A stretch of DNA of 36,445 bases from Myxococcales bacterium (GTDB lineage: Bacteria > Myxococcota_A > Polyangia > Haliangiales > Haliangiaceae), in NCBI GenBank assembly GCA_005779305.1, contig SXJR01000032.1:1-36445 (forward strand). Reading direction: 5' to 3'. Numbering within the stretch: the first letter of the stretch is position 1; the number at the start of each line of letters is the position of its first letter. The notes under the pieces are model-generated. The model saw only the letters and a list, made by a program, of their open reading frames with translations. It was not told the DNA's origin and made no database searches. Both the position numbers and the translations under genes were made by a program. Of the stretch, positions 4,496-35,178 are shown in pieces.

Positions 4496-6376
<1,881 letters not shown>

Positions 6377-6388
6377 CGGTTCATCGAG

Positions 6389-6394
6389 TTTATA
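6389..6394 (-). promoter_or_regulatory. TATAAA -10-like box before the kinase gene
   Basis: On the minus strand TATAAACTC lies 10-12 nt before the ATG at 6376, so the 5' leader would be only a few bases. The rest of 6377-6577, between the divergent kinase and GspC-like genes, shows no further clear signal apart from the GspC ribosome binding site. Confidence 0.4.
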
Positions 6395-6566
6395 CCCATG
6401 ACGCACGCGCGAGGGGATGCGGTGGGGTGCCGCGGCGCCGCTGCCAGGATGGCGCGCCGGGCGCAGACGCCGAGGGCGAGATGGCGCTTGGGCGGCGCGG
6501 CGCGCCCGCAAGCGCCCGTTTCGTCGAGGATGACCTGCGCGCGGCGGCCCGGCACGCGATGTGGAT

Positions 6567-6571
6567 AGGAG
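6567..6571 (+). promoter_or_regulatory. Shine-Dalgarno AGGAG for the GspC-like gene
   Basis: AGGAG lies 6 nt before the ATG at 6578 and fixes that start. It is one of the few classical ribosome binding sites in the window. Confidence 0.6.
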
Positions 6572-6577
6572 CACGAC

Positions 6578-7495
6578 ATGCGCATCGTCACGCGACGTCT
6601 CCGGCTGGGCTCGAGCGCGGCCATCGTCGGTGCGGCAGCGCTGGCCTCGGCGTGGTTCACGTCGCGGGCGTGGTCGCATGCCGCCGGGGTCGCTCCGCCG
6701 CTCCCGCCGCCGGTGGTGGCGTCGCCGGCGGCCGCGTCGCCGCTCGCCGTCACCCCGGCGGATCCGCGATCGACGACCGCCGAGCTGCTGGCGCGCAACA
6801 TGTTCTGCTCGACGTGCGCGCCGCCGCGCGACGACGGCCCAGCAGAGCGCGGTGCTTCGCCGGTGGCGCGCGCGCTGCCGCGGGTGATCGCGACCCAGGT
6901 CGGACGCCATGGCTGGGCGACGCTCGAGGCCGGCAACGTCGCCGGTGCCTTCGTGCTCGGTGCCGCGCTGCCTGGCGGCGGCGTGCTCGAGTCGATCGAG
7001 CCCGGCGCCATCGTGGTGCGCTTCGACGCCGAGACCACCGTGCGGGTCGCGCTCGCCAGCGAGGCGAACGCCGGTAGCGGTGGCGACACCGCCGGGAAGC
7101 CGTCGAAGCGCGGTGACGGCGCGGCCACGGCCGATCCGTGGGCCGATCGCATCCGCGCGGTGGGCGACAACCGGTGGGAGGTCGATCGCAAGCTGATCCG
7201 CGAGCTGGTGGCCGCCGGCACCGGCGGCACGGCCGCCGCCCGCGGCGTGCGCCTGCAGCCGGTGAACAAGGACGGTCAGCTCGCCGGCGTTCGCGTCACC
7301 GCCGCTCGTAGCGGCTCGCTGGCGACGGCGCTCGGCCTCTCCGCCGGCGACGTGATCGAGTCGATCGACGGCCGCGCCATCGATTCGCCCCAGGTGCTCA
7401 TGAGCATGTACGACAAGCTCGACGGCCTGCGCCGCGTCGACCTCGGCGTGCGCCGCAAGGGCAGCGCGGTGACGCTGACCTATGATTTGCCGTGA
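6578..7495 (+). CDS. GspC-like type II secretion component with PDZ domain
   Basis: The 305-residue protein has an N-terminal signal anchor (about 12-30), a Pro/Ala-rich periplasmic linker, and a homology-region segment starting at ARNMFCSTC (~72-80). It ends with a C-terminal PDZ domain (~215-302; LATALGLSAGDVIESIDG). GspC links the inner-membrane type II secretion platform to the secretin, and its PDZ domain helps recognise cargo. The paired cysteines in FCSTC are typical of myxobacterial versions. No other gsp gene is nearby: the gene stands alone between a kinase and glyoxalase II, and its stop codon directly abuts that of the convergent glyoxalase gene. It may be a second, specialised GspC copy. 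Confidence 0.75.
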   Translation: MRIVTRRLRLGSSAAIVGAAALASAWFTSRAWSHAAGVAPPLPPPVVASPAAASPLAVTPADPRSTTAELLARNMFCSTCAPPRDDGPAERGASPVARALPRVIATQVGRHGWATLEAGNVAGAFVLGAALPGGGVLESIEPGAIVVRFDAETTVRVALASEANAGSGGDTAGKPSKRGDGAATADPWADRIRAVGDNRWEVDRKLIRELVAAGTGGTAAARGVRLQPVNKDGQLAGVRVTAARSGSLATALGLSAGDVIESIDGRAIDSPQVLMSMYDKLDGLRRVDLGVRRKGSAVTLTYDLP

Positions 7496-13602: not shown

Positions 13603-16910
<3,308 letters not shown>

Positions 16911-16914
<4 letters not shown>

Positions 16915-17510
16915 TCGATGATCCCCTGGGCGCGGGCCAGCTCGCGGAGGCGGTGCTTGAGCCGCTCGAAGCGTTTGCGAAGGGTCGCGGCCTCGCGCTT
17001 GATGTCGGCGTCGGGCGCGCTGAGGACGCGCGCGATGTCGACCCACTCGAGGCCCCGGTCGACCCGCAGGCCGAGCAGGATGCGCTCGTCGGGCTCGAGG
17101 CTCTCGCGCAGCCGCGTGAAGGCGTCCTTGACCTCGGTGCGGCGGTACGCCGCGGTGGTGGTGCGGACCTGGGCGATCGCCGCCTCGACGCTGGCGTCCT
17201 CGAGCGCGCCGCGACGCTTGACGCTGCCGGGGCCGCGGCGAGCGTGAAAGAACTCGTTGCGCGCCACCACGTACGCCCAGACCCTGAACGAGCTTTCCCA
17301 GCGGAAGGCGGGCAAGGCACGCCACAGCTTCTCGCACAGGGCGCCGAAGATCTCGTCGGCCTCCGACGGGTTGCCGGTGAGGCCGACGAGGAAGCCCATC
17401 AGCTCGTCGCCGTAGCCGCGCACCGCCGCGGTCATGGCGCCTGACAGATCATGGGCTTGGATGCGACGCCGCAGCTCGGCCTCGAGGTCAGCTCGCGCGG
17501 TCGCGTCCAC
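16911..17510 (-). CDS. ECF-like RNA polymerase sigma factor (kinase-linked)
   Basis: The 199-residue protein has sigma-70 region 2 at ~25-90 (YGDELMGFLVGLTGN, AFRWESSFRVWAYVVARNEF) and region 4 at ~130-195 (LEPDERILLGLRVDRGLEW, KREAATLRKRFERLKHRLRE). There is no anti-sigma gene. Instead the next gene, overlapping by 4 bp, is a Ser/Thr kinase, as in the ECF groups regulated by phosphorylation. Start is GTG; a TAGGCT box lies 9 nt upstream. It diverges from the giant annexin-repeat gene, with 88 bp between starts, so that gene is a natural candidate target. This last point is inference. Confidence 0.85.
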
Positions 17511-17598: not shown

Positions 17599-20500
17599 AT
17601 GACTCACCCGTTCCTGCGCAAGCTCGCTGCCCTGGCCGAGGAAGATGGCCTCGAGGACATCAGCCAGCTCCTGGGAACGCCGGGCCGCCGTACGCTGACC
17701 TCGAAGCTGCCGCCGCGCGCCGTCGAGGCGGCGCCGATCGTGATCAACGTCGCCGACGCCGAGAGCGCCCGGGCCCTCGGCGACACGATCCTGGTCGCCG
17801 CGCGAGCCAAGTTTCAGCGCGCGGCGAGCGGGCCGAGCGACCAGGCTGGCGAAGCGATCGTCGATCCGATCGTCGATCCGATCGTCGATCCGGCGAAAGC
17901 CTTCGTCGCCAGCGCTTCGTCGCCGCCGGCGTCCGCACGTCACCAGGTCAAGCCCGCCACCCGGAGACCCCTCGACAAGGCGCGCCGCCAGGCGGAGCAC
18001 AAGGCGGCCCTCGGAGACGCGGTCCCCATGGGCCGGCGACTTGATGGCAAGGTCAGACTCGAACGCACGGACGAAGCGCGCACGGACGATGCGCCGCGGT
18101 TCACGGCGAGCCCCGGCGACGATCGGCGCGCGTTCAGGGCCGCCGCCGTCGAGCCGACGAAACCTGGTGAACCCGTCGAGCCGACGAAGCTTCGTGAACC
18201 GGTCGAGGACCCCTTCGCCATGCACCTGTTGCCGGCGCGCAAGCCTGACGGCGCAGGGTCCAGCGCCGCGGGCTCAGCTCCCGCGACGCCAGCCAGCCCG
18301 GCTTCGTTGCCCGGCTTCGAGCGGGCCGCGGCTTTCGGTCCTGCGATGCCTCAGGCGACCGAGGAGCTTGCCGGTACCGACCGCGCGCCCGGCCTCGAAG
18401 GCCTGCCGTTCGACGACATCTTCGAGCGCACGCGTGTCGCCGGTGCCAGCGAACCACTGACGGCCACGACCGAAGCAACGGAATCCAAGGAAGTCGAGCA
18501 CGCGGATGCGCCCGACCATGCGTTCCAGGCCGCCGCGGCGGAGCCAGCCTCGCCGCGGAAACCCTCGTTGACACCTCGCACCGCCCACGCGGAGGCGAAA
18601 CGCCATCTCGACAGACCCGACGACGCGCGCGGCTTCCGCGCCGCAAAGCCCGACGACGCGCGCGGCTTCCGCGCCGCAAAGCCCGACGACGCTCCCGCCT
18701 TTCGCGCCGCAAAGCCCGACGACGCTCCCGCCTTTCGCGCCGCAAAGCCCGACAACGCGCGCGTTGTTCGCGCCGCGAAGCCCGACGACGCTCCCGCTTT
18801 TAGCGCCGCGAAGCCCGACGACGCGCGCGTTGTTCGCGCCGCGAAACCCGACGACGCTCCCGCCTTTCGCGCCGCCAAGGCCGAAAAGCCCGACGAGCTC
18901 GATGGAGCGCCCGACTTTCGTGCCGCCAGGCCTGACGCCGCCGCTCCTGGCGCCGCCAAGCCCGATGACGCGTCCGCGTTTCGTGCCGCCAAGACCAAGG
19001 ACGCGCCCGACTCCCGTGCGGCCAGCGTCGGCGACGCACCCGCCCGCCGGTTGCGGACCAACGACGAGCCCAGGCCCGGCGTAGACGCCGATTCCCGAGG
19101 CAAGGAAGCTCGCGCCACGGACGGACGCGGCACGTACGCGAAGGCCAACCGCGCGCCGGGAGGGAATCTCGCACCGAGCGACGACACCAGCTCACCGCTG
19201 GATCCGTACTTCGATCGCGACACCCCATTCTCGGGCCCCTCGGCTGGCCCGGCACCGTCGGGCCCCGCGCCGGCTCCCGGTCGCGCACCCGCACCTGGCG
19301 GCCCTGCGCCGGCCAAGCCCGCGCCCGCCGGTCCCGCGCCGGGCGGCGGTGGTAGCGGCGCCGCCGATCTGGAAGCTCAGAAGCAGGCCGTGAAGCAGCA
19401 GGCGGAGCGCAAGCGCGCCGAGGTCACGGAGCTGCATCAGCACACCGCGGCCACGGCCAGCGCGCAGGCGCAGACCGAGCGGCAGACCAAGTTCGACGCG
19501 GCCAGGGCCGAGGCGCAGGCCGAGAAGGCGCGCCTCGACGGCGAGCGCGACGCGGCCAAGGCCGAGGCTGCCGCCGAGCGCGAATCCAAGGAGGTCACCC
19601 GGGCCGGCCTCGAAGAAGAGATCGCGACCGCCGAGACCCAGGAGGTCGCCGAGCTGACCAGCGGCAAGGACAGCGCGGTCCAGGAGCTCCAGGCCACACT
19701 CGACAACCAGAAGGCGAGACTGACCACCGAGCACGAGGCGCTCATGGCCAAGGTCGATGCCGAGCTGGCGACCTCCGAGCAGGAGTCAGCTACCAAGCTG
19801 GGCGAGAAGACCGAGGCGCTGCGCACCAACCTGGAGGCCGAGCTCCTGCAGCTCGAGACCAGCAACGAGACGCGCAAGGCCAAGAACCTCGCGACGGCCG
19901 AGAGCGAGCGCGACGCCTTCCTCGAGGAGGGACGCCGTCAGGAGAAGGACGCCCGCGAGCGCGGCGAGACCGATGCCGCCGCCGTGAAGGACGCCGCCGA
20001 GGTCGACGCCACCGCCGCCATCGAGGAGGCCAAGACCCGCGGCCTGGCGGCACAGAACGCGGCCCTCGCCGCCGCCGAGCAGCTCACCGACCCGGCAGAG
20101 AAGGAGAAGAAGAAGGGCACCGCCGTCCTCGCGTTCAACGAGGCGCTCCTGGCCGGCACCAACAAGGCCATCCAGCTCCGCACCCAGGCGGCGGTGTCCT
20201 CCGACACCATCCGCACCAAGGCGATGGAGCTCGCCGATGGCATGCGGACCAAGGCGGAGGAGAAGGCCAAGTCACTGGTGAGCGACGCCAAGCAGCTCAA
20301 CACCACGCTCGACACCCAGCTCGCGCTCGAGAAACGCAACGCCGACGCCAAGCTGGTCAGCGCACTCGGGGCCCTCGAGAGCGAGCAACAGACCTTGCTG
20401 GCGCAGCTCCGCACCAACGCCGCGACCCAGCGCACCACCGCCGCGACCAAGCTGGCCGCCGACACCGCGACGATCGACGCCGACCGCGGCTCGGCCGTCC

Positions 20501-23500
20501 AGGACCTCGAGGCGAAGCTGGCGACCGACCTCGCCACGGCCAAGGACAAGGCCGCCAAGGCCCGCACCGACCTTGCCAGCCGCAGCGAGAGCGACCTCGC
20601 CGCGGCCGCCGACGAGGTTCGCAAGGCCACCGCCGCGATCGATCAGGCGTCGGAGGACGCCGAGACGCGCAACGGCGAGACCGTCGCCAAGGTGGAGGCC
20701 ACGGTGACCGCCCGCACCACCGCCGGGATCGCCGACATGCAGCGCGTCGCCGCCGAGACTCTCATCTCGATCGACGTCGAGGCCGACGCGATGGTCCGCA
20801 GCCTCGACGAGCGCGGCAAGCTGATGCTGGCGCAGCAGGACGCCGCCGCCAAGGCGACCGAGGAAGGGCTGGCCAACCGCCAGGCCGCCATCGAGAAGGA
20901 CCTCGCCGAGCAGGCTCAGATCCGCAAGGACGAGATCGGCAAGGAGGCCATCGCCGAGCAGGAGAAGCTGCGCGAGGAGAAGCTCGACGGGCTCGACAAG
21001 ACCTACAACGAGCTCGACAGCGAGCTCGATCACGCCCTCGACCCCAGCCGCAATCGCGCGGCCGAGGACGCGGCGGCCGAGGCCCAGAAGGCCGAAGCCG
21101 ACAAGCTGGCCGCCCAGATGGCCGACGAGCTCGACGATACGTTCGTCGACGAGGACGCCGTGCTCGACATGATGTCGGGCAAGACGCCGGCGCAGGTCGC
21201 GGCGATGAAGGCGGCCTACAAGGACAAGACCGGCAAGGACCTCGACACCGACCTCGGCGGCGCCATGGACGACGACGAGATGAAGCTGGCCAAGGCCCAG
21301 ATGACCGGCGACAAGCTGACCCAGCGCCTGGCCCGGCTCGAGTACGAGTCGGACGAGTGGCTTACCGACGAGACCAAGATGGCCGCGGCCATGGACGGCC
21401 TGACCGCCGAGGAGAAGACCGAGCTGGCCAAGCGCTTCGAGCAGCGCACCGGTGACGACCTCGCCACCACCCTCGACGACGAGCTGGATGCCGAGCAGCG
21501 GGCCGAGGTCGGCGAGGTCAAGGACGGCCAGGAGTCGTACGGCAAGGGCGGCGAGATGTCGGAGGTGCAGCTGGAGGCGGCGGCGGCCCTCGGCAAGGCG
21601 AAGCTGGCCGAGATGCGCAAGGGCGACAAGAAACTCACCGACGAGCAGGACAAGGCCGCCGCCAAGGCCGCCGCCGACATCCGCGCCGGCATGACCCAGC
21701 TCATCGGCACCGACGAGGACGCCATCCTCGACGCGCTCAAGGGCAAGTCACCCGAGGAGATCGCCGCGATCAAGGCGCACTTCGCGGCCCAGGGCTGGGG
21801 CGACATGGAGAGCTCGATGGAAGAGTCGATGGGCGGCCTCCTCGATTCCGCCGACGACATGAAGCTGGCCAAGGCGCGGCTGTCGGGCGATCCGGTGGTG
21901 GCCGCAGCCGCCCAGCTCGAGGTCGCGATGGACGGCGCCGGCACCGACACCGACGCCGTGCACGAAGCGCTGGAGGGCATCACCGACCCCGAGCAGCGCC
22001 GCAAGGTCGAGCAGGAATACGAGTCGCGCACCGGCTGCAAGCTGGACGAGGACGTGAAAGGCGAGCTCAGCGGCTACGACGCCCGCCTGGCCGAGGCCAT
22101 GATGATCGACGATCCGGTGAAGCGGGTCTCGGCGATCGCCGCCAACCGGCTCGACGAGGCCGCCAACGGCAACTTCATCAGCGAGGCCACCGGCGTCCGC
22201 GTGCCCAGCATCCTGATCGGCGGCATCACCGCCCACTCCGCGTTCACCGACGAGAAGAAGATGTACGCCGAGCTGGAGAAGATCAAGGACCCGGCGGTGC
22301 GCGCGCAGCTGGAGAAGGACTACGCGGAGCTCACCGGCAAGTCGCTGCGCTCGGACCTGGCCGACAGCCTCGGCGGCAGCGAGGACAACGCCCGCTACGA
22401 CGCCGTCGAAGCGTACCTCGACGGCGACCTGGATGCGGCGCGCGCCGCCCGCATCCGCGCCGGCGCCGACTCGCCGTGGGGCACCGACGAGCAGGAGATC
22501 TACAAGCAGCTCGAAGGCCTGAGCCCGGACGAGCGCAAGCGTCTGCAGGCCAAGCTCGTCGATCAGACCAAGTCGGGCGACAACCCCGACGGCCTGACGC
22601 TGGACAACATCCTCGAAGACGAGCTGTCGGACGAGCAGCTCGACAAGGGCAAGGAGCTGGCCAGGGACGGCAAGGTCAGCGACGCCACCGCGATCCGCAA
22701 CGCCCTCCAGGGGCTCGGCACCGACGACGAGGGGCTGCGCAAGGCGCTCGCCGGCAAGTCCAAGGACGAGATCGACGCGATGGCCAAGGACTACAACGCC
22801 CGCTACGGCAAGGACGGCGACGACTTCTTCGCCGACATCCGCGGCGAGAACCTCGGCGGCCGCGAAGCCAAGCTGCTCGAGCTCCAGCTCACCAAGGGCG
22901 AGCCGCAGACCGATGCGGAGAAGATCCAGCGTATCAAGGACCTGCACGAGATCGAGCGCGGCGACGGCAACTTGATCACCGACTGGGCCCGCGGGGACGC
23001 GGGCGAGGACATGGACCGCCAGCTCGAGGCGGCCAAGGAGCTCGAGAAGAAGCTCAAGGACGGCACCCTGAGCGAGGACGACAAGCAGGCGCTCACCGAC
23101 GTCACGAACTACCACGCCAATTCGGTCGGCAACTACCGCAAGGCGCAGGAGGACGTGGTGTCGGTGATGAGCACCGCCAGCGATGCGCTCTACGGGACCA
23201 ATCCCATCCTCGCGGCCATGCAGCGCATCAGCAACAAGCGCATGGTGCTGGAGGACAACTACGGCGCCGGCGAGATCATCAAGGACGTCGGTGTCGAGGT
23301 GGCCAAGATGGGAGTCCAGGCGCTCACGGCCATCGTCGGCGGTGGGGCGCTCATGGAGGGCATCGGAGGGCTTGGCAAGGAAGTCTTGATGGGCGCCTTC
23401 AAGGGCATGCTCGAGGGCGTCGTGGAAGGCGCCTTCGACGAGGCCGCGATCCGCGACCTCGGCGACTACGTGAAGGGCCTGCTCAGCAAGGGCGCCACCG

Positions 23501-24411
23501 GCGCCGCCAAGGGCGCCGCGGAGGCGCTGACCGAGGCCGCCATCGACGGGGCGGTCGGCAAGCTGATGGCGCAGTTCTCAGCCGACACCGAGGGCAAGGC
23601 GCGGCTCCTGGGTGCACTCGAGGAGCTGCTCAAGGGTGCGGGCGGGGTCGCCGCCGACGCTGACACGTATGAAAAGCGCTGGGAGGACACCGCGAAGAGC
23701 GCGGTGACCGGCATCATCGGGGACATGGTGGCCGGCCAGCAGAAGGGGGCCGACGCCTACAACAAGAGCCTCACCAAGGAGTTCGGCGACGCCGCCCGCA
23801 ACCGGCCGTACAAGACGGAGGAAGAACGGGAGCAGGCCGTCCAGGACGCGATCGCCGAGGGCGAGCGGGTCGACGCGCTGGTCGCCGAGGAGGGCGCCCA
23901 GGCCGAAGCCAGTGCCAGGGCGCGGGCCCGCGCCGAGGGCAAGTCAGACGCGGAGGTGGACCGTGACGGCGCCAGGGCCCGCCGTGCCGCCGAGGAAGCG
24001 CACAAAGCGGCTCACCGCAGGAACGAGCGCGAGCGGAGCCAGACCAGCGGGCAATCCGAGGACGTGTCGCCGGAGCAGCCAGCCCCGCCGGCTCCCGAGC
24101 CGGCCGCGGCGCCGGCCCCGCCCGATCGTGACCCCCTCGATCCGCCTCCCACCGAGACCGACGAGATGTTCGATCGCGCCCGCAAGGCCCGCGAGCAGGC
24201 GATCGCCGATGGCGCGAGCCCCGAGGACGCCAACCGGATCGAGGTCGAAGAGATGATCAAGCCGCCGAAGACGCCTCCCGGTGAGCCGATCCCCGACGAG
24301 ACCGACGTCAAGTTCAACCGCGCCCGGCGGGCCCATGACGAGGTGCTGGCCGGCGGCGGCAGCCAGGCCGACGCCGACCAGGCCTTCCACGACACGTGGC
24401 TCTACCAGTGA
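17599..24411 (+). CDS. giant repeat protein with long coiled coil and seven annexin-like repeats
   Basis: The protein has 2270 residues and no signal peptide. In order: a short N-terminal region (1-80); IVDP repeated three times (87-98); an 11-residue AKPDDAPAFRA-type repeat tract (~340-486); a Pro/Gly linker (536-588); an Ala/Glu/Lys-rich coiled coil (~588-1165). Seven annexin-like repeats follow (~1182-1768), best seen in GAGTDTDAVHEAL (1445) and DEDVKGELSGYDARL. Next come a helical segment and a Gly-rich hydrophobic stretch (~1895-1994; ALTAIVGGGALMEGIGGLG). A charged Pro-rich tail contains two copies of a TDEMFDRARKAREQ-type unit (~2185 and ~2233). Annexin repeats bind acidic phospholipids with Ca2+ in eukaryotes and are rare in bacteria. 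The order coiled coil, annexin, hydrophobic segment recalls large proteins of contractile-injection loci, but no DUF4157 head or known toxin tip is visible. Confidence 0.85.
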   Translation: MTHPFLRKLAALAEEDGLEDISQLLGTPGRRTLTSKLPPRAVEAAPIVINVADAESARALGDTILVAARAKFQRAASGPSDQAGEAIVDPIVDPIVDPAKAFVASASSPPASARHQVKPATRRPLDKARRQAEHKAALGDAVPMGRRLDGKVRLERTDEARTDDAPRFTASPGDDRRAFRAAAVEPTKPGEPVEPTKLREPVEDPFAMHLLPARKPDGAGSSAAGSAPATPASPASLPGFERAAAFGPAMPQATEELAGTDRAPGLEGLPFDDIFERTRVAGASEPLTATTEATESKEVEHADAPDHAFQAAAAEPASPRKPSLTPRTAHAEAKRHLDRPDDARGFRAAKPDDARGFRAAKPDDAPAFRAAKPDDAPAFRAAKPDNARVVRAAKPDDAPAFSAAKPDDARVVRAAKPDDAPAFRAAKAEKPDELDGAPDFRAARPDAAAPGAAKPDDASAFRAAKTKDAPDSRAASVGDAPARRLRTNDEPRPGVDADSRGKEARATDGRGTYAKANRAPGGNLAPSDDTSSPLDPYFDRDTPFSGPSAGPAPSGPAPAPGRAPAPGGPAPAKPAPAGPAPGGGGSGAADLEAQKQAVKQQAERKRAEVTELHQHTAATASAQAQTERQTKFDAARAEAQAEKARLDGERDAAKAEAAAERESKEVTRAGLEEEIATAETQEVAELTSGKDSAVQELQATLDNQKARLTTEHEALMAKVDAELATSEQESATKLGEKTEALRTNLEAELLQLETSNETRKAKNLATAESERDAFLEEGRRQEKDARERGETDAAAVKDAAEVDATAAIEEAKTRGLAAQNAALAAAEQLTDPAEKEKKKGTAVLAFNEALLAGTNKAIQLRTQAAVSSDTIRTKAMELADGMRTKAEEKAKSLVSDAKQLNTTLDTQLALEKRNADAKLVSALGALESEQQTLLAQLRTNAATQRTTAATKLAADTATIDADRGSAVQDLEAKLATDLATAKDKAAKARTDLASRSESDLAAAADEVRKATAAIDQASEDAETRNGETVAKVEATVTARTTAGIADMQRVAAETLISIDVEADAMVRSLDERGKLMLAQQDAAAKATEEGLANRQAAIEKDLAEQAQIRKDEIGKEAIAEQEKLREEKLDGLDKTYNELDSELDHALDPSRNRAAEDAAAEAQKAEADKLAAQMADELDDTFVDEDAVLDMMSGKTPAQVAAMKAAYKDKTGKDLDTDLGGAMDDDEMKLAKAQMTGDKLTQRLARLEYESDEWLTDETKMAAAMDGLTAEEKTELAKRFEQRTGDDLATTLDDELDAEQRAEVGEVKDGQESYGKGGEMSEVQLEAAAALGKAKLAEMRKGDKKLTDEQDKAAAKAAADIRAGMTQLIGTDEDAILDALKGKSPEEIAAIKAHFAAQGWGDMESSMEESMGGLLDSADDMKLAKARLSGDPVVAAAAQLEVAMDGAGTDTDAVHEALEGITDPEQRRKVEQEYESRTGCKLDEDVKGELSGYDARLAEAMMIDDPVKRVSAIAANRLDEAANGNFISEATGVRVPSILIGGITAHSAFTDEKKMYAELEKIKDPAVRAQLEKDYAELTGKSLRSDLADSLGGSEDNARYDAVEAYLDGDLDAARAARIRAGADSPWGTDEQEIYKQLEGLSPDERKRLQAKLVDQTKSGDNPDGLTLDNILEDELSDEQLDKGKELARDGKVSDATAIRNALQGLGTDDEGLRKALAGKSKDEIDAMAKDYNARYGKDGDDFFADIRGENLGGREAKLLELQLTKGEPQTDAEKIQRIKDLHEIERGDGNLITDWARGDAGEDMDRQLEAAKELEKKLKDGTLSEDDKQALTDVTNYHANSVGNYRKAQEDVVSVMSTASDALYGTNPILAAMQRISNKRMVLEDNYGAGEIIKDVGVEVAKMGVQALTAIVGGGALMEGIGGLGKEVLMGAFKGMLEGVVEGAFDEAAIRDLGDYVKGLLSKGATGAAKGAAEALTEAAIDGAVGKLMAQFSADTEGKARLLGALEELLKGAGGVAADADTYEKRWEDTAKSAVTGIIGDMVAGQQKGADAYNKSLTKEFGDAARNRPYKTEEEREQAVQDAIAEGERVDALVAEEGAQAEASARARARAEGKSDAEVDRDGARARRAAEEAHKAAHRRNERERSQTSGQSEDVSPEQPAPPAPEPAAAPAPPDRDPLDPPPTETDEMFDRARKAREQAIADGASPEDANRIEVEEMIKPPKTPPGEPIPDETDVKFNRARRAHDEVLAGGGSQADADQAFHDTWLYQ
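17857..17892 (+). repeat. 12-bp tandem repeat encoding IVDP, three copies
   Basis: ATCGTCGATCCG is repeated three times in frame, residues 87-98 of the giant protein. The exactness of the DNA repeat suggests recent expansion. Confidence 0.75.
18616..19056 (+). repeat. 33-bp coding tandem repeat (11-residue unit)
   Basis: Units of the type AKPDD-A-(P/R)-x-F-R-A follow each other about eight times with few changes (18616-~18860), then about five degenerate copies. Alternating subtypes (DARGFRA, DAPAFRA, DARVVRA) suggest unequal crossing-over. The tract is predicted to be disordered and positively charged. Confidence 0.8.
21142..22902 (+). other. annexin-like repeat array within the giant protein
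   Basis: Seven units start near residues 1182, 1254, 1369, 1445, 1548, 1626 and 1705. Each has a (G)TDE/D-type loop followed by a helix, a short turn (GKSPEEI, GITDPEQ, GLSPDER), an aromatic helix (AYKDKTGKDL, EYESRTGCKL) and a final acidic turn. Loops of the GxGT kind occur in units 4 (GAGTD) and 7 (GLGTD). In unit 4 the acidic residue ~41 positions on (GELSG, Glu1488) matches the type II Ca site of animal annexins. Extra linkers separate units 2/3 and 4/5. Confidence 0.75.
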
Positions 24412-29941: not shown

Positions 29942-31390
<1,449 letters not shown>

Positions 31391-31398
31391 CGCCGCGC

Positions 31399-31406
31399 AC
31401 ATTATC
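31399..31406 (-). promoter_or_regulatory. GATAATGT -10 region of the sigma-54 activator gene
   Basis: On the minus strand TAATGT (31404-31399) lies 8 nt before the ATG at 31390, and the overlapping GATAAT lies 10 nt before it. Both imply a leader of only a few bases and favour 31390 over 31402 as start. Confidence 0.45.
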
Positions 31407-31430
31407 ACGGGGGCGGCGCGACACCTGGTG

Positions 31431-31436
31431 TACGGT
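31431..31436 (+). promoter_or_regulatory. TACGGT -10 box of the MBL-fold gene
   Basis: TACGGT is followed by 8 nt and the ATG at 31445. No Shine-Dalgarno sequence is present. Confidence 0.45.
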
Positions 31437-31444
31437 CCGTCGCC

Positions 31445-32575
31445 ATGGCCTACGCACCGATCCCCGGCCACCTGACCCGCCTGACCGAGCTCGACGCCGC
31501 CTGGGCCGTCGCCGGCTCGGGCGCGCGCCTCGCGGCGGTTCGTGCCGCAGCGCGTCGGCTCCACGATCGCCTGACCGCGGGCGGCCCCGCGGTCTCGGTG
31601 CGGACCGCCGACATCGCGACCTTCCCGTACCCCACTCGGTTCGGCCTCGACGGCGCGGCCCGAGCGCTGGCGCCGTTCGTGATGATGCGCAACCGCGTGC
31701 AGCTGGTGCAGGTCCGCGCCGGCGGCGAGCTGGTCAACATCCTGGTCAACCCCACCGATCCCGAGCGCTCGCTGGCGGCTCCGTTCTTCGCCCAGCAGCT
31801 CGAGCGCTACGGAACGTTCGTGTCGAAGCGAGTCATGTCGTCACAGCACGGCACTGCCGCGCAGGCGCTGGCCACCTGGGGCGTCGATCCCGCCGACATC
31901 CACTACGTCGCGTTCGATCATCTGCACGTGCAGGATCTGCGTGGCCTGCTCGGCACCATCGTGCCCGAGCCGGGCAAGAACGAGCCGACCCGGGCGCTCC
32001 TGCCCAACGCCCGCCTCCTGGCCCAGCGCAGCGAGCTGGCCACGCTCGAGGAGCCGCACCCGCTGCAGCGCTACTGGTACGTCGACGGCGGCATCCTCGG
32101 CATCGATCCCCAGAAGATCGTCGCCCTCGATGGTGACTTCGCCATCGGCGCCGGCCTGGCCCTGGTGCGCACGCCCGGCCACACGCTCGGCAACCACTCG
32201 ATCGCCATGGTCACCGATCGCGGCGTGTGGACGGTGAGCGAGAACGGCGTCGCCGTCGACGCCTACGCGCCCGAGGCCAGCGCCATCGCCGGGCTGCGCG
32301 GCCATGCCCGCGCCCGCGGCGTCGAGGTCATCCTCAACGCCAACACCAAGGAGCACACCCTCGACCAGTACACGTCGATGGTGCTGGAGAAGACCCTGGC
32401 CGATCCGTGCCCAGATCGTCCTGAGTTCCCGCAGCACTTCTCGTCGTCGGAGCTGGTCAAGCACCCGCTGGCGCCGGGGCTGGCGCCCACGTACACCCAC
32501 GGCGCCATCACCCACGGCCAGATCGTCACGCGCCGCCACGTCGCGCCTGACCCGCGCCCGGTGGTGCAGGCATGA
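31445..32575 (+). CDS. metallo-beta-lactamase-fold protein with altered metal motif
   Basis: The 376-residue cytosolic protein has the outline of an MBL-fold hydrolase: a strand leading to DIHYVAFDHLHVQDL (~156-172), then GHTLGNHSIAM (~245-255) and a late ILNANTKEH. In the usual HxHxDH motif only the first two His are kept (HLHVQD); the Asp-His pair is displaced. The second-site His of GHTLG and the His of GNHS remain. It may bind one metal or serve a different chemistry. Its stop overlaps the aminopeptidase ATG (ATGA), so the two are co-translated. Function is unknown. Confidence 0.7.
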   Translation: MAYAPIPGHLTRLTELDAAWAVAGSGARLAAVRAAARRLHDRLTAGGPAVSVRTADIATFPYPTRFGLDGAARALAPFVMMRNRVQLVQVRAGGELVNILVNPTDPERSLAAPFFAQQLERYGTFVSKRVMSSQHGTAAQALATWGVDPADIHYVAFDHLHVQDLRGLLGTIVPEPGKNEPTRALLPNARLLAQRSELATLEEPHPLQRYWYVDGGILGIDPQKIVALDGDFAIGAGLALVRTPGHTLGNHSIAMVTDRGVWTVSENGVAVDAYAPEASAIAGLRGHARARGVEVILNANTKEHTLDQYTSMVLEKTLADPCPDRPEFPQHFSSSELVKHPLAPGLAPTYTHGAITHGQIVTRRHVAPDPRPVVQA

Positions 32576-35178
32576 GCCGCGACTTCGTCTTGCCAGGCAC
32601 CCGCGCCCGCTGGGCTCCGGACCGGCCGGCCGACGTCGAGCACTACCACATCGCGATCGCGCTCCACCCCGCCGAACGTCGCGTCGCCGGCACCACCCGG
32701 GTGCGGGCCCGGGTGCTGGCCCGCGAGCTGCGCTGGTTCGAACTCGACGCCGTCGAGCTCGACGTGAGCGCGGTCAGCGAGGGCGGCACGGCGCGCCGCT
32801 TCGAGCACGACGGCCGCTGCCTGCGCATCGATCTGGGCGAGGCCCGCAAGCCGGGCGCCACGATCGAGGTCGCGGTGACCTACGCCGCCAGCCCGCGCCG
32901 CGGCCTCTACTTCGTCGGCCCCGACGCCGGGTACCCCGACAAGCCGTCACAGGTGTGGACCCAGGGCCAGGACGAAGACTCGCGGTACTGGTTCCCGTGC
33001 GTCGACACCCCGCACGAGAAGGCGACCAGCGAGGTCGTGGCCGACGTCCCGGCCGGCTGGTACGCGCTGTCCAACGGAGTCCTGCTCGAGGACAAGCAGG
33101 TCGGTGATCGCCGGGTCATGCACTGGCGCCACGATCAGCCTCACTCCTGCTACCTGGTCACGCTCGCTGCCGGTGATCTCGCCACCGTCGAGGACACGTG
33201 GCGCGACGTGCCCGTCGTCTACCACGTGGCCCGCGGCCGCGAGGACGCGGCCCGGCGCACGCTCGGCCGCACGCCCGAGATGATGGAGCTGTTCTCGACG
33301 CTGTTCGGCGTGCCCTACCCGTACCAGCGCTACGCCCAGGTCTGCGTGTCGGACTTCATCTTCGGCGGCATGGAGAACACCACCGCCACCACGCTCACCG
33401 AGACCGTGCTGCTCGACGAGCGCGCCGCGCTCGACGACGACGAGGACGCGCTGGTCGCGCACGAGCTGGCCCACCAGTGGTTCGGCGACCTGGTCACCTG
33501 CCGCGACTGGGGCGAGGGCTGGCTCAACGAGGGCTTCGCCACGTACGCCGAGTACCTGTGGCGCGAGCACGCCGACGGCCGCGACGAGGCCGACCTCTTG
33601 CTCGACGAGTTCGCGGAGATGTACTTCCACGAAGACGGCGCTCGCTACCGCCGCACGATCTGCACCAAGCACTACGACGAGCCGATCGACGTCTTCGATC
33701 ACCACCTGTACGACAAGGCCGGGCGCGTGCTGCATATGCTGCGCCGGCTGCTCGGCGACGAGCTGTTCTGGAAGAGCCTCGCCCACTACCTGACCAAGCA
33801 TCGCCACGGCGCGGTCGAGACCCGCGATCTGGCCCGCGCCATCGAGGACGCGACCGGTCGGGTCGTCGACGGGTTCTTCAGCCAGTGGATCCTCGACGGC
33901 GCCGGCCACCCCGAGCTCAAGCTGTCGATGAGCTGGGACGCAGAGGCCGGGCTGGCCGAGGTCACCGTCGAGCAGACCCAGAAGGTCGAGGGCAAGACCC
34001 CGGTGTTCCGCTTCCCGGTCACGCTCCGCTTCCGCGTCGGCGACGCCGACGTCGATCGCGAGGTCGAGATCGAGGACAAGCGGCACACCTTCCACGTGCC
34101 GCTGACCGCCGCCCCTTCGCAGATGATCTTCGATCCCGGCCGCAGCATCCTGGCCGCGGTCGAGACCGAGAAGAGCGTGGCGCTGTGGGCGGCCGAGCTG
34201 AAGGACGCGACGCTGGCGATCGATCGCGCGTACGCGGCGCGGGCGCTGGGCAAGCGCGGTGGCCCCAAGGCGATGTCGGCGCTGAGCCAGGCCCTGGTAT
34301 CGGATCGGTTCTGGGCCGTGCGCGGCGCCGCCGCCCAGGCCCTGGGCGCGATCCGCAGCGACGTCGCCCGCGACCGGCTGGTGGCCGCGGTGGCCAGCGA
34401 GAGTCATCCCAAGGCGCGGCGGGCCGTGGTGCGCGCGCTCGGCGAATTCCGCAGCAGCGTGACCGTGGCCGAGGTGCTGGGCGGGATCGTCGAGGGCGGC
34501 GACGACAGCTACTTCGTCGAGGCCGAGGCCTGCCTGGCCCTCGGCAAGGCGCGCGCTCCACAGGCACCGGCGCTCCTGCGCGCCGCCGCCGGACGCGACG
34601 CGTTCCTGGACGTGATCCGCAGCCACGCCTATCGCGGGCTGGCGGAGGCCCGCGACGACAGCGCGGTCGACTTCCTGCTCGCCGCCGCAGACTGGGGCCG
34701 TCCGTCCCACGGTCGGCGCGCGGCGGTCGCGGCGCTGGCGTCGCTGTGCAAGGGCCGGCGCGATCGCGAGGCGGCGCGGGTGCGCGAACGGATCGAGGAG
34801 CTGCTCGAGGATCGCGACTTCCGCGTCCAGAGCGCCGCCCTCGAGGCACTCAACACGCTCGGCGACGCGGCGGCCATCGCCGCGATCGAGCGCATGGGCG
34901 AGCGCGAGCTCGACGGGCGCCTGCGCCGGCGTAGCCGTGAGGTGGTGCGCGACCTCGGCGATCGCAACAGCGCGGCCGAAGAGCTGCAGCGCCTGCGCGA
35001 CGAGCTGGCGGAGCTGCGCACCGCGTCGGTCGGGCTGCGCGAGCGGATGGACAAGCTCGAGGCCCGGCCCACCGGCGATGACGACGACGCCAAAGCAGCG
35101 AAGAAGGCGGCCAAGGCGGCGAAGAAGGCCGCCAAGGCAGCCAAGGCCACCAGCCGCGACGGCAAGAAGCGCGGCTGA
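32572..35178 (+). CDS. M1-family zinc aminopeptidase with C-terminal HEAT repeats
   Basis: The 868-residue protein has the M1 layout: N-terminal beta domain (1-~200), GGMENTTATT substrate motif (~265), and the catalytic HELAHQWFGDL (~297) with the third zinc ligand Glu 18 residues after the second His (LNEGFATYAEYLW). A helical part leads to HEAT-type repeats (~545-800; AAQALGAIRSDVARDRLV, AVVRALGEFRSS). A short coiled coil and a Lys/Ala tail (AKKAAKAAKKAAKAAKATSR) end the protein. It removes N-terminal residues from peptides. HEAT repeats replace the usual ERAP-type C-terminal domain, as in TAF2-like and some bacterial M1 proteins. No signal peptide is visible. Confidence 0.92.
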   Translation: MSRDFVLPGTRARWAPDRPADVEHYHIAIALHPAERRVAGTTRVRARVLARELRWFELDAVELDVSAVSEGGTARRFEHDGRCLRIDLGEARKPGATIEVAVTYAASPRRGLYFVGPDAGYPDKPSQVWTQGQDEDSRYWFPCVDTPHEKATSEVVADVPAGWYALSNGVLLEDKQVGDRRVMHWRHDQPHSCYLVTLAAGDLATVEDTWRDVPVVYHVARGREDAARRTLGRTPEMMELFSTLFGVPYPYQRYAQVCVSDFIFGGMENTTATTLTETVLLDERAALDDDEDALVAHELAHQWFGDLVTCRDWGEGWLNEGFATYAEYLWREHADGRDEADLLLDEFAEMYFHEDGARYRRTICTKHYDEPIDVFDHHLYDKAGRVLHMLRRLLGDELFWKSLAHYLTKHRHGAVETRDLARAIEDATGRVVDGFFSQWILDGAGHPELKLSMSWDAEAGLAEVTVEQTQKVEGKTPVFRFPVTLRFRVGDADVDREVEIEDKRHTFHVPLTAAPSQMIFDPGRSILAAVETEKSVALWAAELKDATLAIDRAYAARALGKRGGPKAMSALSQALVSDRFWAVRGAAAQALGAIRSDVARDRLVAAVASESHPKARRAVVRALGEFRSSVTVAEVLGGIVEGGDDSYFVEAEACLALGKARAPQAPALLRAAAGRDAFLDVIRSHAYRGLAEARDDSAVDFLLAAADWGRPSHGRRAAVAALASLCKGRRDREAARVRERIEELLEDRDFRVQSAALEALNTLGDAAAIAAIERMGERELDGRLRRRSREVVRDLGDRNSAAEELQRLRDELAELRTASVGLRERMDKLEARPTGDDDDAKAAKKAAKAAKKAAKAAKATSRDGKKRG

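Follow-up and report, generated by a model that had tools for sequence, protein, structure and literature searches.

Annexin domains in toxins of the Photorhabdus virulence cassette secretion system (PVC-SS, an extracellular contractile injection system, eCIS) were described in 2012, when a helping role in breaching membranes was proposed for them (PMC3482391). Bacterial annexins were surveyed in 2014 (PMC3894181), and annexins in eCIS toxins were noted again in 2021 (PMC8213781). In view of the accessible parts of these three reports, the remark of an initial annotation of the DNA considered here, that bacterial annexins are little studied, is too strong. According to the accessible text of two further reports, published effectors may be devoid of the domain DUF4157 (PMC11297309, PMC13277306). 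One of them describes Sle1, whose N-terminal coiled coil of 440 residues is associated in trans with a DUF4157 protein; the helices behind this coiled coil include a predicted membrane hairpin (PMC13277306). It has been proposed that large coiled-coil cargos are carried in the tube and, once ejected, act on membranes (PMC13277306, PMC11126660). The subject of this work is a protein of 2,270 residues, hereafter the annexin giant, encoded on contig SXJR01000032.1 of an uncultured Myxococcales bacterium (assembly GCA_005779305.1); the whole stretch analyzed, of 36,445 nucleotides, is called the window. We consider it somewhat probable that the annexin giant is a DUF4157-less cargo (effector) of eCIS type, docked to membranes by its annexin array. 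This reading is based on its annexin units, on N-terminal motifs shared with DUF4157 proteins, on a conserved architecture, on the co-occurrence of annexins with contractile sheath genes, and on one relative with the first of these motifs (the tag) beside a sheath-tube gene pair.

Annexin array, helical rod and C-terminal region

The gene and the seven annexin units of its product are located as follows.

17599..24411, + strand: coding sequence of the annexin giant, from the ATG at 17599 to the stop codon included, 2,270 residues (codon-position GC content)
21148..21267, + strand: annexin unit 1, residues 1184–1223, calcium loop lost (local profile)
21334..21489, + strand: annexin unit 2, residues 1246–1297, calcium loop lost (local profile)
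21670..21837, + strand: annexin unit 3, residues 1358–1413, partial loop LIGTD (local profile)
21907..22074, + strand: annexin unit 4, residues 1437–1492, GAGT loop and Glu1489 (local profile and Pfam)
22246..22377, + strand: annexin unit 5, residues 1550–1593, calcium loop lost (local profile)
22471..22632, + strand: annexin unit 6, residues 1625–1678, partial loop PWGTD (local profile)
22684..22815, + strand: annexin unit 7, residues 1696–1739, GLGT loop at 1705–1708 with acidic residues downstream (local profile)

The reading frame is also open from an alternative ATG at 17434, and the start at 17599 was favored because the tag sits 27 residues past it; the limits given by the initial annotation were right. 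The GC content at the third codon position was 0.80–0.96 along the gene, a level like that of a maintained gene.

In a Pfam-A scan, the protein matched Annexin (PF00191) with 85.2 bits versus a cut-off of 25 (E 3.3e-24) and four stretches passing individually, with no other family up to E 1; scans against PHROGs (up to E 0.1) and NCBIfam gave no match. A local profile made of 34 PF00191 segments, one of them unit 4 of the annexin giant itself, recovered seven significant units between residues 1184 and 1739 (independent E 1.4e-9 to 2.1e-24), while an eighth match at residues 1163–1180 was not significant (E 2.3). None of 14 control genomes contained a PF00191 match. Among all the sequences of the PDB, the top match was annexin VI, a protein of eight repeats (E 3.2e-18). 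In the AlphaFold2 model of residues 1165–2096, the predicted local distance difference test (pLDDT) was mostly 70–95 for the blocks of the array, with dips at two linkers, and poor beyond the array. Foldseek with this model gave annexin VI as the top match (E 1.3e-11), and the 50 matches listed were all annexins or annexin fusions. A predicted five-helix pattern recurred along the array in the models. The seven annexin-like units and their homology to annexins, both proposed from the letters alone, were borne out: with Pfam matches above threshold and this helix pattern, the outcome that the initial annotation had named as a refutation did not occur. Compact four-unit discs were not apparent in the models, with root-mean-square deviations (rmsd) of about 7–30 Å among the matches listed; a separate model of residues 1165–1498 reached a pLDDT of 86 and a predicted template modeling score (pTM) of 0.53, and its listed Foldseek matches, again annexins or annexin fusions, aligned mostly at about 22 Å rmsd. 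The spacing of the units, set against the tetrad spacing of annexins, had hinted at two tetrads in the array. A full eighth unit, which would complete an annexin VI-like pair of tetrads, was rejected on account of the helices that follow unit 7, which span 16, 5, 21 and 40 residues instead of being five short ones.

Concerning calcium, a GxGT loop plus an acidic residue (type II calcium site) is kept only in units 4 and 7, the acidic-residue criterion being lenient and every loop passing it. Unit 4 had been credited with both halves of the site, and it does have GAGT and an acidic residue, which is Glu1489 (residue 1488 is Gly); unit 7 keeps an intact loop as well. Judging from the loop sequences, units 4 and 7 may bind calcium.

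The array is preceded and followed by these other features.

18616..18884, + strand: about eight tandem 33-bp units, low-complexity linker, e.g., AKPDDAPAFRA (Tandem Repeats Finder)
19354..21093, + strand: helical rod, residues 586–1165, with a hendecad-like rhythm of 11 residues (2 Pro in 580 residues)
22912..23160, + strand: conserved helical cap, residues ~1772–1854, in the position of an eighth unit (model helices and relatives; no five-helix pattern)
23281..23580, + strand: Gly/Ala-rich segment, residues 1895–1994, the hydrophobic stretch of the relatives being absent here
23866..24408, + strand: C-terminal tail, residues 2090–2270, no domain recognized by Pfam, PHROGs or NCBIfam

Residues 1–585 are mostly of low complexity, and the tandem repeat within them has a period of 33, 8.2 copies, 86% matches and a score of 349. 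In the rod, the autocorrelation of hydrophobic residues was 0.18 at lags 11 and 22, 0.16 at lag 15 and 0.10 at lag 7. As the values at lags 11 and 22 are above that at lag 7, an ordinary heptad coiled coil was rejected. The rods of four relatives showed a stronger autocorrelation at lag 11 (0.30–0.42), and 11-mers in register are visible in that of L019. With the segment taken as a whole, the spectral power at a period of exactly 11/3 was not above that of shuffles (277 of 2,000 reached it), and therefore the rhythm drifts in phase; taken by blocks, three of six were significant near a period of 3.67. So, the long helical spacer of nearly 600 residues foreseen by the initial annotation stands, with an 11-residue rhythm in place of the heptads of a coiled coil.

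Behind unit 7, the cap (helices 608–623, 628–632, 636–656 and 662–701 in the numbering of the model) is conserved in relatives. The Gly-rich segment, formerly regarded as a membrane-active part, is only moderately hydrophobic: its best 19-residue Kyte-Doolittle mean was 1.37, unlike the strongly hydrophobic stretch of the relatives (1.67–2.16 in all 11 measured). The possibility that this segment forms a pore is weakened accordingly.

PF00191 was matched in 17 of 56 genomes searched, the genome of the annexin giant included, mostly in frames of 2,300–4,250 residues, and in five of the six other genomes of the same genus. L018 and L019–L024 have their seven units at similar spacings. A scan of 84,980 species genomes gave 11 related loci, including some from Kofleriaceae, metagenome-assembled genomes (MAGs) of other myxobacteria or deltaproteobacteria, a cyanobacterial (Coleofasciculus) MAG and Myxococcus dinghuensis. 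Relatives with this array run on into a hydrophobic hairpin and then into variable, sometimes toxin-like domains: an APH-type kinase above the Pfam cut-off in the C-terminal part of L020, a DUF6782 metallopeptidase and RelA/SpoT, both below the family cut-off, in L022, and a zeta toxin, also below the cut-off, in L028. The scanned parts of L018, L021, L026, L067, L074 and L076 matched no enzyme family. By eye, the end of L073 looks calpain-like. L073, from a deltaproteobacterial MAG, and L074, on a contig of the Coleofasciculus MAG, have a similar annexin array plus post-array region, a likeness due either to transfer between phyla or to mis-binning.

Among 13 relatives, the number of GxGT loops per array was 4–6 in 10, two in L076 and zero in L028 and L031; the last two arrays, in frames of 4,245 and 3,921 residues, are probably calcium-independent versions. 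These comparisons bear on the proposal that the annexin giant is a decaying or truncated effector, a former toxin carrier from which hairpin and toxin are gone, with its calcium loops being lost and little function left. It would account for the presence of only two GxGT loops, for the failure to find any C-terminal domain, and for the fact that the annexin giant alone, among 12 proteins measured, misses the hydrophobic stretch. We nevertheless regard it as quite unlikely: 2,270 codons are open, with third-position GC up to 0.96, all seven units are still detectable, and L028 and L031 keep arrays in very long frames devoid of any GxGT.

N-terminal motifs shared with DUF4157 proteins

Two short motifs of the N-terminal region connect the annexin giant to other proteins of its genome.

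17677..17709, + strand: N-terminal tag TPGRRTLTSKL, residues 27–37 (position-specific scoring matrix, PSSM, from DUF4157 frames of the same genome)
18205..18231, + strand: second motif EDPFAMHLL, residues 203–211 (count of DPFxxHL in tag-bearing open reading frames, ORFs)

DUF4157, the eCIS core domain (PF13699), was matched 42 times in the draft genome, at loci L038–L057 and L077–L096, and most of these matches have the shared N-terminal motif. Forty of the matches were read, and L044 and L052 were then excluded as mis-oriented. In 31 of the 38 remaining frames, the tag, with consensus [AP][PA]G[KR]x[TS][RL][TS]xx[LM], lies upstream of DUF4157. The motif was missing from seven (L051, L055, L077, L079, L080, L094 and L096), two of which are open at the 5′ end (L077 and L080) while L096 starts at a contig end. 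A 12-column PSSM derived from the 31 frames gave residues 27–38 of the annexin giant a score of 19.0; when the first 100 residues of the protein were shuffled 20,000 times, one shuffle reached this score. Held-out windows scoring at least 19 among 831,880 12-mers (from six-frame ORFs, with annexin loci over-represented and overlapping loci counted repeatedly) belonged to four annexin ORFs, i.e., the annexin giant, L018, L032 and L036, and to the DUF4157 ORF L044. DUF4157 itself is absent from the annexin giant (Pfam up to E 1, and a local DUF4157 profile was silent). The annexin giant thus shares a lineage-specific N-terminal motif with DUF4157 proteins, which might act as a loading signal.

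The motif model used for genome searches includes the annexin giant, as its first sequence, and the match of the annexin giant in those searches is therefore not independent evidence; the PSSM test is. This model gave 60 matches at E up to 10 in the genome of the annexin giant, 31 of them in frames with a PF13699 match as well (paired by hand). Eleven further tag ORFs were read and nine were scanned with Pfam: two, both free of PF13699 matches, contained Peptidase_M15_4 (E 2e-8 and 1.6e-7), one had SH3 domains plus a weak M15 match and, by eye, an HExxH stretch, one was a dioxygenase and probably a chance match, and five had no family. L099, L103 and L098:334-2304, which combine the tag and DPFxxHL with Peptidase_M15_4 or SH3 domains, have the appearance of cargo that degrades cell walls. 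The C-terminal parts of two tag ORFs of no Pfam family, L098:2135-4156 and L101:201-1823, are alike by eye and possibly share an undescribed effector domain.

The second motif, DPF..HL, was found in 18 of 45 tag-bearing ORFs (the annexin giant included, and with overlapping copies of one gene, L018/L053, among the 45), versus two of the other ORFs, which total 696,920 residues. Six of the 18 matches fall inside DUF4157, and one of the two background ORFs (L094) is a DUF4157 frame. The six other genomes of the genus gave 23–70 DUF4157 matches and at least 25–49 tag matches each. Two annexin proteins provide closer ties to DUF4157: another annexin giant, L029, has DUF4157 at residues 78–148 and annexins in the same frame, and L018, the second annexin giant of the same genome as ours, has the tag and, on contig C543, is oriented divergently from a DUF4157 frame.

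Both the N-terminal motifs common to DUF4157 proteins and the variable C-terminal domains of the relatives had escaped the initial annotation, and it is these that argue for injected cargo rather than for a resident scaffold. It is possible, if doubtful, that the tag is an N-terminal address used throughout this lineage, in many cases with DPFxxHL behind it, by which several dozen dispersed cargos in each genome are directed to contractile injection systems in place of operon linkage and even of DUF4157, and that such cargos include toxin-less annexin arrays with membrane coating as their payload. If the tag marks loading, then loading could be tested from sequence alone, and cargo encoded far from an injection operon would be revealed.

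Contractile sheath genes and the fate of the protein

A sheath gene (PF04984 above the family cut-off) was found in 28 of 55 relatives, including all six other genomes of the genus. Annexin, counted at E up to 0.001, occurred in 15 of the 28 sheath-positive versus one of the 27 sheath-negative genomes (p 3.5e-5), the genomes counted being related to each other; the sole sheath-negative genome with annexin, G029, is 59% complete. Counted by genus, the figures were four of nine versus none of 21 (p 0.005). Sheath-negative genomes may hold a divergent sheath, as frames of L110 and L111 pass PF17482 and do not pass PF04984. In the 27 genomes tested for all the elements, DUF4157 was present in 15/15 sheath-positive and 1/12 sheath-negative genomes, and the tag in 10/15 and 0/12, respectively. 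The tag threshold was E up to 1 for G001–G006 (best E 0.0009–0.0026) and 0.05 for 21 other genomes, and the tag counts are lower bounds in 13 of 28 genomes searched.

These co-occurrences are relevant to the view that the protein stays in the myxobacterium, inside the cell or in the periplasm, as a calcium-dependent membrane scaffold in which the rod is a spacer. The annexin array and the long helix are real, as that view demands; moreover, the contig has no DUF4157 or sheath match and the draft genome no sheath match. It does not explain why the N-terminal motifs are common to dozens of DUF4157 proteins, why some relatives end in toxin-like domains, why annexins co-occur with sheath genes, or why they are patchy even within the genus (5/6 other genomes), and we judge it unlikely. 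Of the scaffold proposed by the initial annotation, membrane binding remains the likeliest job of the array, with the place of action shifted toward that of an injected cargo.

Concerning linkage, five sheath stretches were taken, from G003, G006 (two), G009 and G011. In G011, a 92-residue frame contains a tag scoring 29.9 (L110:6329-6364); about 1.9 kb farther on come a sheath frame, above the PF17482 cut-off, and then a gp19 tube gene (E 2.4e-42; sheath and tube at L110:8222-11234). G003 has a DUF4157 match, in a 247-residue frame, about 6 kb from a comparable sheath frame. G006, of the same genus as ours, has two differing injection loci (L112 and L114). In the first, Pvc16_N, two sheath frames and a gp19 tube gene make up what looks like a complete operon; in the second, a larger sheath (786 residues) and gp19 are accompanied by a match to the CIS_tube family and by a weak match to a hub, and an annexin frame of G006 is on the same contig as this second locus, about 41 kb away. 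Linkage of the tag or of DUF4157 to sheath genes thus exists but is rare in the loci covered, most tagged genes being elsewhere, that of the annexin giant included. The linkage in G011 speaks a little for delivery and the scattering a little against it, which left our assessment unchanged.

The scattering would also suit a route other than a contractile injection system (CIS), in which tag and DUF4157 proteins serve secretion or surface attachment and the annexin giant is exported likewise. The tag genes are scattered, with at least 25–49 matches per same-genus genome and, among the matches listed, none beside sheath genes, and the accessible text of published work reports that a conserved eCIS signal sequence was not detected (PMC11297309). 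Such a route is very unlikely in our opinion, given the distributions of DUF4157 (15/15 versus 1/12) and of the tag (10/15 versus 0/12) relative to the sheath, the tag beside the sheath-tube pair in G011, and the status of DUF4157 as an eCIS core domain in the accessible part of PMC8213781.

Delivery by an injection device, which we favor, would proceed as follows. Loading would be specified by the N-terminal motifs together with the helical rod, perhaps with the aid of one of the many DUF4157 proteins of the same genome, acting in trans. Once the protein has been injected into a target cell, its annexin array would fold and attach to acidic membranes, a step for which the two intact loops, those of units 4 and 7, would require calcium. 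In the relatives, docking may position the hydrophobic hairpin and the variable C-terminal domain; since both are missing here, the array itself would be the payload and could coat or cluster the target membrane. Loading, delivery, calcium-dependent docking and effect on the target are all putative steps; docking and membrane coating are the effect that we propose for the annexin giant, with low confidence in this last step.

Several observations weigh against delivery. The tag was not found in five of the 15 sheath-positive genomes. The genome of the annexin giant (a draft, 75% complete) has no PF04984 match, and its 36 kb contig (C190) has neither a PF13699 nor a PF04984 match, so there is no adjacent DUF4157 gene, unlike the case of the paralogue L018. 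No injection-system family was matched by the neighbors of the annexin relatives L076 (10 ORFs) and L074 (seven ORFs). Among the tag matches listed (of 205) in the six same-genus genomes, none is on a contig with a sheath match, and the five sheath stretches contained no 12-mer scoring at least 15 except the one in G011. GxGT is absent from five of the seven units, and neither a toxin domain (Pfam, PHROGs, NCBIfam) nor a hydrophobic hairpin was recognized in the annexin giant. Finally, the loading of a protein of 2,270 residues into an injection device is itself presumptive.

The 10 window ORFs scanned matched no injection-system family either. Linkage of the annexin giant gene to an injection operon, sought in the contig, the draft genome, the window ORFs and the neighbors of relatives, was thus not found. 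Pvc16_N gave no match in the draft genome, where the controls were silent too. In the same genome, L107–L109 (contigs C576 and C322) include frames of 331 and 327 residues with two Phage_T4_gp19 (tube-family) matches each. Within the window, a Ser/Thr protein kinase with TPR repeats (13603–17337, − strand) is divergent to, and beside, the annexin giant gene; other ORFs encode a kinase with DUF4388 (4496–6910, − strand), an FHA sigma-54 activator (29942–31564, − strand) and an M1 peptidase with HEAT repeats (32572–35178, + strand).

Comparison with known systems

A seven-unit bacterial annexin array with a rod, and the shared tag, were not found in the literature searched and appear to be new; the letters of four tag variants gave no match in that literature, outside which lie most subscription papers and all bioRxiv preprints. 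The tag is common to 31/38 DUF4157 frames and to annexin proteins without DUF4157, which contrasts with the statement, in the accessible text of PMC11297309, that no conserved loading sequence was detected. The array, on its part, is a natural experiment on annexins outside eukaryotic cells, with similar layouts and from none to six calcium loops per array.

Annexin A6 (annexin VI, PDB 1avc and 1m9i), the top match in both sequence and Foldseek searches, shares with the annexin giant the presence of more than four repeats per chain and differs from it in that the latter has seven units plus a helical cap and has lost most calcium loops. The PVC-SS toxins of Haliangium and others are likewise myxobacterial, with annexin domains joined to DUF4157 or to toxin domains (accessible parts of PMC3482391 and PMC3894181). 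As far as the same parts go, these toxins have a single annexin domain each (PMC3482391) and bacterial proteins have up to five (PMC3894181), versus seven in the annexin giant. Compared with the PVC-SS annexin toxins, the annexin giant has no DUF4157 in cis and no recognized toxin, and it has a conserved N-terminal tag.

With regard to CIS effectors, Sle1 of the Sle1/Sle2 pair of Streptomyces lividans is, like the annexin giant, one without DUF4157; its gene lies in the injection gene cluster, and the accessible text does not mention an annexin array for it (PMC13277306). With regard to the homology to phage tape measure proteins that would be expected of a Sle1-like effector, PHROGs gave no match up to E 0.1. 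Tme of Streptomyces davawensis is another very large CIS effector, in which disordered parts, a coiled coil and hydrophobic helices accompany an enzyme at the C terminus; it differs in having DUF4157 in cis, an endonuclease and a location in the injection cluster, according to the accessible text of PMC11126660. If Sle1 and Tme are taken as a guide, the annexin giant, with its tag, rod and array, would fit a large coiled-coil cargo that travels in the tube and acts on membranes, the array being its docking part.

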